DNA of 64,000 bases from contig NZ_CH672420.1 in the NCBI RefSeq assembly GCF_000152905.1, forward strand, positions 1 through 64,000, written 5' to 3'. The first letter of the stretch is position 1; each line of letters starts with the position of its first letter. A program made the position numbers and the translations under genes. The notes beneath the pieces were generated by a model. It worked only from the letters and a program-made list of their open reading frames with translations. It ran no database searches and was not told where the DNA came from. Positions 50,622 to 53,184 of this stretch are shown one piece after another. This DNA is from Nitrobacter sp. Nb-311A (GTDB lineage Bacteria > Pseudomonadota > Alphaproteobacteria > Rhizobiales > Xanthobacteraceae).

Positions 50622-52055
50622 ATGACTCACTTTGAACCTTCCCGCGCTACCGTCCATATCATCGGCGCCGGCCTGGCCGGCTCGGAAGCAGCCTGGCAGG
50701 TCGCAGGTCGGGGCGTTCGAGTGATTCTGCACGAAATGCGTCCGCACCGGATGACTGAGGCGCACCGGACCAGCGGCCTGGCGGAGCTGGTCTGTTCGAA
50801 TTCGTTCCGATCCGACGATGCTTCCAACAATGCGGTCGGACTCTTACATGCCGAGATGCGCCGGCTGGAGTCGCTGATCATGCGTTGCGCCGATACTCAT
50901 CAGGTTCCGGCAGGCGGCGCGCTCGCAGTGGATCGCGACGGCTTTTCGGCTGCCGTCACCGAAGCTCTCGAAGATCATCCGCTGATCGAGATTGACCGGG
51001 CCGAGATCGACGGCCTGCCGCCCGCTGACTGGAGCAACGTCATCGTCGCCACGGGTCCCCTCACCTCGGCCCCCCTCGCCGCTGCGATCCGCGCCTTGAC
51101 CGACGAATCCGCGCTCGCCTTTTTCGACGCGATCGCACCCATCGTCCATCGCGACTCCATCGATATGTCGAAAGCCTGGTTTCAGTCCCGTTATGACAAG
51201 GCTGGTCCTGGCGGCAGCGGCGCCGATTACATCAATTGTCCGCTGACCGAGACGCAGTATCACGCTTTCGTGGACGCGCTGCTTGAGGGCGAGAAGGTCG
51301 ACTTCAAAGACTGGGAGACCGATACCCCGTATTTCAACGGCTGCCTACCGATCGAGGTCATGGCTGAACGCGGCCGCGAAACTCTGCGCTACGGTCCGAT
51401 GAAACCGGTGGGTCTTACCAATCCGCACGATCCCACCACCAAGCCCTACGCCGTCGTCCAGTTACGCCAGGACAACAAGCTGGGAACGCTTTACAATATC
51501 GTGGGCTTTCAGACCAAACTGAAGCATAGCGCGCAGACGCGTATCTTCCGCACCATTCCGGGCCTTGAGAACGCGGAATTCGCCCGCCTCGGCGGTTTGC
51601 ATCGCAACACATTCCTGAACTCGCCAAAACTCCTCGACAACCGGTTGCGACTGCGTGCCGAGCCGCGGCTGCGCTTTGCGGGACAGATGACCGGATGCGA
51701 AGGTTACGTGGAATCCGCCGCAATCGGCTTGATCGCCGGACTTTATGCCGCGGCTGATGCACGGACCCACACGCTTGAAGTCCCGCCGCAGACGACGGCG
51801 CTGGGGGCGCTGCTCGGCCACATCACGGGCGGCCACATCGAAACTATTGATGCGGGACCCCGCTCGTTCCAGCCGATGAACATCAATTTCGGATTGTTTC
51901 CGCCGCTCGCCAATCCACCCAACAAGGCGCCTGACGGCACGCGCCTGCGCGGCAACGAAAAGGCAATCGCAAAAAAGCAGGTAATCTGCGCGCGCGCGCT
52001 GTCGGATCTCGATCGCTGGATCGCCGATGCACTTCATCCGGCAGTTGCGGCATAG
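50622..52055 (+). CDS. trmFO: Methylenetetrahydrofolate--tRNA-(uracil-5-)-methyltransferase TrmFO
   Basis: FAD- and folate-dependent enzyme that makes 5-methyluridine at position 54 of tRNA. 477 residues. Motifs: [18 protein letters not shown] (FAD binding), [26 protein letters not shown] with the conserved Cys, [15 protein letters not shown], and [19 protein letters not shown]. Start at 50622. It begins a plus-strand pair with the kinase-like gene (28 bases later). Confidence 0.96.
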
Positions 52056-52083: not shown

Positions 52084-53184
52084 ATGCCCCTTCCGACGCA
52101 GGATGCAGCATTCCTGTCCACGAGCTGGACCGAAGGAGTCTTGCTGAAGCGCGACGTGTTTTCGACCGTGGAGCGCGGGCGTCTTCGGATGACGTCCGGC
52201 GAGATCAACGCGGTGTTGCGGCGGCTGGATCAGGTGCCCTGGTGGTCATATCCCGTGGCGAGGCATTTGTTCGAGCGGGAACGCAAGGCGCTGACGCTCG
52301 CTCGTGGTCTCGACGTCGGTCCAGAACTTTTGTGGAGCGGGCGCAGCGCATTGGTGCGAGGCTTCATCGATGGTGTGGCGCTGCATCTCGCCAGGCCCCA
52401 TGGCGACCTATCCTATTTTCGGTCAGCCAAGGCAGCGCTTCGCAAGCTGCATCGCGCGGGCATCTGCCACAACGATCTTGCCAAGGAACAGAACTGGCTG
52501 CGCGGCAGCGACGGCAATGCCTACCTGACGGACTTCCAACTCGCCGCGTGCTTCAAACGGCGATCGCGTCTGTTTCGTATCGCAGCTTACGAAGACCTGC
52601 GGCATCTTCTCAAACACAAGCGCACTTATGCGTCCGACGCCCTGACGCCACGCGAGCGCAAGTTACTTGAGCGCAAGTCGGTCATCGCGCGCGCGTGGCT
52701 GATGACCGGCAAGAAAGTCTACAAGGCCATCACGCGCGGCCTGTTCAATTTCACCGACCGCGAAGGTGGCGGCCGACGTCTCGTCAACGACGCTCCTGTT
52801 CTGATCGCGCGCATCAGGGAGAATCCTGCGGTACGTGATGCCGCCATCGTTGCCTTCGCGGACCGCCGCAGCGGCGTCGGACTTTACGCCTTTGTCGAGG
52901 CAGATCTGCCCGGACTCGAAGCGCGGTTACGCTCCATTCTCGCCGCTGCAAACGAGCCGAAGCCTCCCGAGCACATCCAGGTCATTCCGCGTCTTCCACG
53001 AGGCGCCGACGGCAAGGTGCGCACTGAGATCCTGCAACTCATCGCCATGAATCAGATCGATCTGATTGAGCCATTGATCACAAGTCCGGAAGACCGTGAA
53101 TTCTTCCGCGATACCCTGGGTAGCCGGAAAAATCTTCGAGACCGCTTCAATTTTGAATCGCGCGATCAGGCGCTGCCTTCCTGA
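52084..53184 (+). CDS. RIO/Kdo-kinase-like protein fused to adenylate-forming C-terminal domain
   Basis: A 366-residue protein of two parts. Residues about 30-200 are kinase-like: HRAGICHNDLAKEQNW gives the catalytic loop His129-Asn-Asp131 ... Asn137 and LTDFQLA the metal Asp150 (DFQ in place of DFG). The glycine-rich loop is not obvious, as in lipopolysaccharide-type kinases. Residues about 236-340 match the C-terminal subdomain of acyl-CoA synthetase/AMP-binding enzymes: VRDAAIVAFADRRSGVGLYAFVE, then HIQVIPRLPRGADGKVRTE with the conserved Lys311. No AMP-binding N-domain is present. Start at 52084; an upstream in-frame ATG lies inside trmFO. Substrate unknown. Confidence 0.75.
   Translation: MPLPTQDAAFLSTSWTEGVLLKRDVFSTVERGRLRMTSGEINAVLRRLDQVPWWSYPVARHLFERERKALTLARGLDVGPELLWSGRSALVRGFIDGVALHLARPHGDLSYFRSAKAALRKLHRAGICHNDLAKEQNWLRGSDGNAYLTDFQLAACFKRRSRLFRIAAYEDLRHLLKHKRTYASDALTPRERKLLERKSVIARAWLMTGKKVYKAITRGLFNFTDREGGGRRLVNDAPVLIARIRENPAVRDAAIVAFADRRSGVGLYAFVEADLPGLEARLRSILAAANEPKPPEHIQVIPRLPRGADGKVRTEILQLIAMNQIDLIEPLITSPEDREFFRDTLGSRKNLRDRFNFESRDQALPS

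Follow-up and report, generated by a model that had tools for sequence, protein, structure and literature searches.

The open reading frame at 52084-53184 of the window (the whole 64,000-nucleotide stretch of Nitrobacter sp. Nb-311A DNA analysed here), described in the first-pass annotation as a kinase-like domain fused to the C-terminal subdomain of adenylate-forming (ANL) enzymes, was confirmed on the forward strand at these coordinates. The features discussed below are the following.

52084..53184, + strand: whole gene, 366 aa, member of NF006620/PRK09188 (606 bits against a curated cut-off of 490)
52084..52749, + strand: kinase half, residues 1-222, based on alignments, a tally of 105 fused rows, and a VIA Z score of 17.0 to Rio2 (1tqi)
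52756..52767, + strand: junction motif D225-x-E227-G228, present in 105/105 fused rows
52777..53148, + strand: ANL C-terminal subdomain of the acetyl-CoA synthetase (Acs) type, residues ~232-355, based on profile, structure, and alignment matches
53014..53016, + strand: Lys311 codon (AAG) at the ANL catalytic lysine position, not conserved among fused proteins
50622..52055, + strand: trmFO (tRNA m5U54 methyltransferase; NF003739, 682.8 bits), directly upstream and encoding a separate protein

The trmFO stop and the start of the kinase-Acs gene are separated by 28 bases. An earlier ATG lies in the same frame at 52027, and the alignable region of other family members begins near 52084. A gene of the squalene/phytoene synthase family faces the fusion gene. 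The genome itself contains one full-length match to the protein and four partial ones restricted to the C-terminal half (C-half), and the best named match is from N. vulgaris (93%; records of the own genome were possibly excluded).

The family is already catalogued: NF006620, named "serine/threonine protein kinase", matches residues 1-359. A second model, NF008910/PRK12274, reaches 182.9 bits and thus stays below its curated cut-off of 372. In Pfam, the protein alone gave matches below the cut-offs for both halves, namely to PF00069 (Pkinase, residues 111-162, 20.2 bits vs. 31.7) and PF13193 (AMP-binding_C, residues 244-311, 21.8 bits vs. 24.5), and the Pfam and NCBIfam scans listed no match to an AMP-binding N-domain. 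In the open-licence literature we found no mention of PRK09188 or PRK12274 and no description of the fused architecture or of a loss of catalysis in it.

The kinase half and the Acs-derived C-terminal subdomain

The full-length structural model (pLDDT 84.9) resembles A. fulgidus Rio2 (1tqi) most closely, followed by the kinase of the lanthipeptide synthetase CurKC (Z 16.8) and Rio1 (Z 16.4), although Rio2 is tied with these, as VIA rows within one Z unit of each other were counted as equal. A profile of the kinase half searched against solved structures ranked StkP first (4.4e-6) and Rio2 1tqi only at 0.001, and the Pfam scan of the window protein listed no RIO family up to an E value of 1. 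The HND and DFQ motifs on which the kinase assignment had originally been based are invariant in all 105 fused proteins of the tally, as part of a set comprising R46, E66, H129-N130-D131, K134, N137, and D150-F-Q152. The catalytic Asp and Asn, the metal-binding Asp, and the kinase fold, all features of the protein-kinase-like superfamily, are therefore present. The β3 lysine is absent and R46 takes its place in every fused protein; this position was assigned by visual comparison with remote relatives that read IIK or VIK there. No GxGxxG loop is visible in the alignment of the kinase half.

The invariant arginine and the missing canonical Gly-rich loop would fit a pseudokinase scaffold in which both halves are non-catalytic. 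Against this, no fused protein has lost the catalytic Asp and Asn or the metal Asp, which a pseudokinase could dispense with, and arginine also replaces the β3 lysine as a conserved residue in choline kinases, according to an excerpt of Kannan et al. (2007, PMC1821047). We thus regard a pseudokinase as unlikely. The small kinase half with its RIO-like fold can probably still bind ATP and transfer phosphate, as judged from its conserved residues. The same excerpt groups Rio, Bud32, and KdoK together, and we infer that the present family may belong to this cluster.

Since the VIA rows mostly spanned residues 1-204 of the full model, in which the linker residues 222-229 have a pLDDT below 50, the C-half was also modelled separately (pLDDT 77.6). 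All 50 listed Foldseek matches of this model in the PDB are ANL enzymes, with Acs first (5e-6), so that the structure prediction upheld the ANL fold, and no N-domain match was listed for the protein. A profile built from 33 C-halves likewise ranked Acs chains first among PDB sequences (best 1.1e-13), confirming what the Pfam search with the single protein had indicated below threshold. The C-half of L036/L191, a homologue belonging to a different order of the same class, matches positions 527-643 of the 649 positions of the Acs profile NF001208 (4.5e-26), and the L191 sequence exceeds the PF13193 cut-off with 71.6 bits. On the strength of this match to the end of the Acs profile, the module is derived from the C-terminal subdomain of Acs, and the window protein carries an eroded copy of it.

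Distribution, junction and genomic neighbourhood

Both halves occur together throughout the family. The fused C-half is present in 107/107 loci studied in the same class, two of them in part (L285 stops at a contig end and L295 enters undetermined bases), and in 80/80 named loci, which are the best 80 of at least 532 relatives. With a profile of the kinase half, matches were found in 91 of the 149 genomes of the window's own family (three matches at contig edges, in G1143, G1127, and G1041, were left out of the locus set), in 16/297 genomes of the order (15 fused, one remote kinase), in 11/121 genomes of a further order (that of G841), in 2/6 and 1/4 genomes of two smaller groups, and in 23/398 genomes of the phylum; these genome draws overlap one another. 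The cut-off of NF006620 itself was exceeded in 5/150 and 1/289 genomes, and most of the other listed matches to this model cover only C-half positions within long Acs-like frames. L160 and L037, two remote kinases of the same class, have no C-half; their scores against the fused family are 43 and 61 bits, and they were excluded from the member counts.

Outside the class, six genomes of the phylum draw encode close relatives consisting of the kinase only (L163-L168, 224-238 bits), and four more contain only remote kinases. The six close relatives all end 5 to 11 residues past the tail, for which five have D-N-E-G and one has D-D-D-G. Because these kinase-only proteins share it, we read the junction motif as the tail of the kinase, and the idea that its D-E-G is left over from the ANL A8 motif was rejected. 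A single origin of the fusion is not contradicted by the data. One quick tree was unresolved and required two changes of the fused label, and in another the 25 fused C-halves used all fell on one side of a branch (support 86); in a kinase tree, 29 fused rows formed one group with a support of just 48. Two separate fusions, considered for L181 and L191 with C-halves nearer to Acs, gained no firm support from these quick trees. A MAG labelled Paraburkholderia (L122) encodes a Bradyrhizobium-like copy (74% to the window protein), which is likely a binning error.

Links to phages or defence were also considered and dropped: a scan of viral contigs yielded 25 pattern matches and no confirmed relatives, and the PADLOC hits were limited to four weak ones to PD-T4-6 kinases, covering the catalytic loop with E values no better than 0.00077.

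The adjacency to trmFO is strong. Of the 91 loci of family f1, 87 have this gene immediately upstream in the same orientation, as do all 75 named loci for which 1600 or more upstream bases are available; in families f18 and f21 it is found 831-910 bp downstream on the same strand (4/4 loci). Among the four f1 exceptions, L250 has only 761 upstream bases and its genome has a trmFO match on another contig, L259 and L269 likewise have trmFO on a separate contig, and for L236 the genome (G1107) encodes the kinase with no trmFO match at an E value of 1e-60. Across the 149 family genomes, trmFO was found in 137 and the kinase in 91. An obligate pairing is weakened by G1107 and by trmFO-bearing genomes that lack the kinase. 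All six drawn genomes of the genus g570 (G1030, G1068, G1089, G1107, G1123, and G1138) had no trmFO match at 1e-60.

Other neighbourhoods differ. In f74 (L183 and L202-L211), which might at a guess be Rhodobacterales-like, an aldehyde dehydrogenase gene is located upstream on the same strand in 11/11 loci (within 157 bp in nine), a peroxiredoxin gene upstream on the opposite strand in 10/11, and an RluA-type pseudouridine synthase gene downstream on the opposite strand in 8/11. L181 has neither trmFO nor aldehyde dehydrogenase or RluA-type neighbours. A conserved frame of 281-343 aa was observed on the opposite strand between the kinase gene and trmFO at three loci (L178:6269-7114, L179:8459-9304, and L180:8876-9907); Pfam gave no match for the L178 frame, and neither NCBIfam nor Pfam gave one for the L180 copy, so that the frame may be either an as yet unnamed gene or a shadow frame. 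In three genomes, kinase-only relatives (L212-L214) precede a gene of the DUF2867 kind and are divergent from a gene for a DedA/PAP2/LssY-type membrane protein; these neighbours were grouped as clusters and only the L212 copies were named.

This setting raises the question of whether the kinase and TrmFO work together in translation or RNA modification, with the kinase acting, for example, on tRNA or a modification enzyme and the Acs module serving as an adaptor. The conserved trmFO neighbour, the RluA-type synthase near most f74 loci, and the top, if tied, fold match to Rio2 would agree with such a role. However, adjacency among relatives can be explained by shared synteny, the kinase and trmFO each occur in genomes without the other, the same-strand neighbour in f74 is an aldehyde dehydrogenase gene, and L181 lacks all of these genes. 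A search of the open-licence literature for a tRNA kinase returned nothing relevant. Overall, we consider an involvement in RNA modification or translation decidedly unlikely.

Loss of ANL chemistry and selection on the C-terminal half

The catalytic-type lysine noted in the first-pass annotation, Lys311, is indeed present in the window protein together with the loop glycine, but it is not a family feature. Position 311 is a lysine in only 19 of the 105 fused proteins (the two partial sequences, L285 and L295, were left out of this tally), where it is otherwise occupied by E (23), A (15), S (11), R (7), and other residues, compared to 50/50 lysines in a set of Acs sequences that had been retrieved because the fused-family model found them. 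Flanking residues that all 50 Acs sequences have in common are altered in the fused C-halves, and two fused rows have a gap at the loop bearing the lysine position. The lysine is kept in 21 of 26 codons of Nitrobacter/Bradyrhizobium-like rows. Two Nitrobacter-like loci (L219 and L096) have CAA (Gln) at this position. An A8/hinge-like motif, searched with a pattern made for this analysis, occurs in 0/105 fused proteins vs. 50/50 Acs; this pattern count was added because the placement of alignment gaps at the junction varied with the aligner. The Acs profile match of L036 begins at position 527, past this motif.

The scaffold of the subdomain is retained. Y268, Q299, and P305 are found in all 105 fused proteins, R348 in 104, N350 in 102, and G266 in 98. 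Other positions set the family apart from Acs: R313 is present in 99/105 fused proteins, whereas all 50 Acs have a methionine there, and D353 (103/105) and R354 (101/105) correspond to a gap in most Acs rows.

The C-half is under purifying selection, even where lysine 311 is lost. Among close pairs of lysine-less rows (57 pairs of 40 rows out of 86, with a kinase identity of at least 85%), the C-half had a median dN/dS of 0.136 and the kinase half one of 0.127, with no value above 1, and the lysine-bearing rows gave 0.080 and 0.096, respectively (35 pairs). The closeness filter was applied because an earlier set of 26 sequences (0.145 for the C-half and 0.152 for the kinase half; 203 pairs) was mostly lysine-bearing and because lysine-less pairs without this filter had medians of 0.64 and 0.49 (1913 pairs), values that we take as inflated by saturation of synonymous sites. 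Selection thus maintains the module in a family whose members mostly lack the features required for the ANL function.

Since these catalytic features are lost, the suggestion that the C-half is a repurposed binding module is favoured over the other option initially put forward, an action in trans on the N-domain of an acyl-CoA synthetase; for the latter, the ANL fold of the C-half model and the lysine and loop glycine of the window protein weigh little against the rarity of the lysine, the missing A8/hinge-like motif, and the two loop gaps across the family, and it is scarcely credible.

Proposed role and comparison with known systems

We propose, with somewhat more confidence than doubt, that the protein is a kinase whose Acs module has been exapted, without catalytic function, for recognising a partner or for regulation. 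In an ancestor within the alphaproteobacteria, the ~120 C-terminal residues of an Acs would have become attached to a small kinase of RIO-like fold. The acquired subdomain would have dispensed with the N-domain, the A8/hinge motif, and the catalytic lysine, that is, the parts serving adenylate and thioester chemistry, and kept its fold and residue scaffold, so that it may now bind a partner or regulate the kinase.

That an Acs-type C-domain can be recognised by itself is indicated by the isolated Salmonella Acs C-terminal domain, which is acetylated by S. lividans PatA in the absence of the N-domain, as described in an excerpt of Tucker and Escalante-Semerena (2014, PMC4053389). One of the Foldseek matches of the C-half model, 4u5y, is by its title a complex of an Acs C-terminal domain with an acetyltransferase of the PatA type. 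According to the same excerpt, the S. lividans Acs C-terminal domain is not acetylated by PatA, and recognition of Acs C-domains is thus not general; it also requires several regions (PMC4053389).

These findings bear on an acetylation-switched or decoy kinase, in which a Pat-type acetyltransferase would bind the Acs-like module, acetylate it where the lysine is kept, and link the acetyl-CoA status to phosphorylation. The sufficiency of an isolated C-domain as a Pat substrate and the retention of Lys311 in most Nitrobacter/Bradyrhizobium-like rows speak for such a switch, but 86 of the 105 rows have no lysine at position 311, the flanking residues are altered, and recognition depends on multiple regions, making it very improbable. 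We would give an equally small chance to a more specific form of docking, in which the module mimics Acs and brings the kinase to Acs partners such as a Pat-type acetyltransferase, a sirtuin, or Acs itself; if true, this would amount to crosstalk between phosphorylation and acetylation in alphaproteobacteria.

In the favoured reading, that of a kinase with an exapted Acs module, the mobile half of an enzyme was severed, lost its chemistry, and was retained by selection as a module of a kinase. The retained module occurs in three orders of a single class, with Bradyrhizobium and Nitrobacter among its carriers, and a kinase family that was annotated yet unexplained gains a testable architecture.

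Compared to known systems, the fused C-half has the fold and scaffold residues in common with the C-terminal subdomain of Acs (PF13193; the end of NF001208), but Acs possesses an N-domain, an A8/hinge-like motif, and a conserved catalytic lysine, all three of which the fused family lacks as conserved features. NF006620/PRK09188 includes the window protein, which matches it over the full length and above the cut-off; the name of this family covers the kinase only, and its second half is identified here as an Acs-derived C-domain. With NF008910/PRK12274 (219 aa), which is the best match for the close relatives L163, L164, and L168 and whose cut-off is exceeded by L164, the protein shares the kinase half and the acidic-Gly tail, whereas this model lacks the ANL C-domain. 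Finally, the RIO kinases (1tqi and 1zth) and the kinase of the class III lanthipeptide synthetase (7wj7) share the kinase fold (Z 16-17) at identities of 13-23% in those rows, but they carry other accessory domains, and the arginine in place of the β3 lysine is a feature of the present family.
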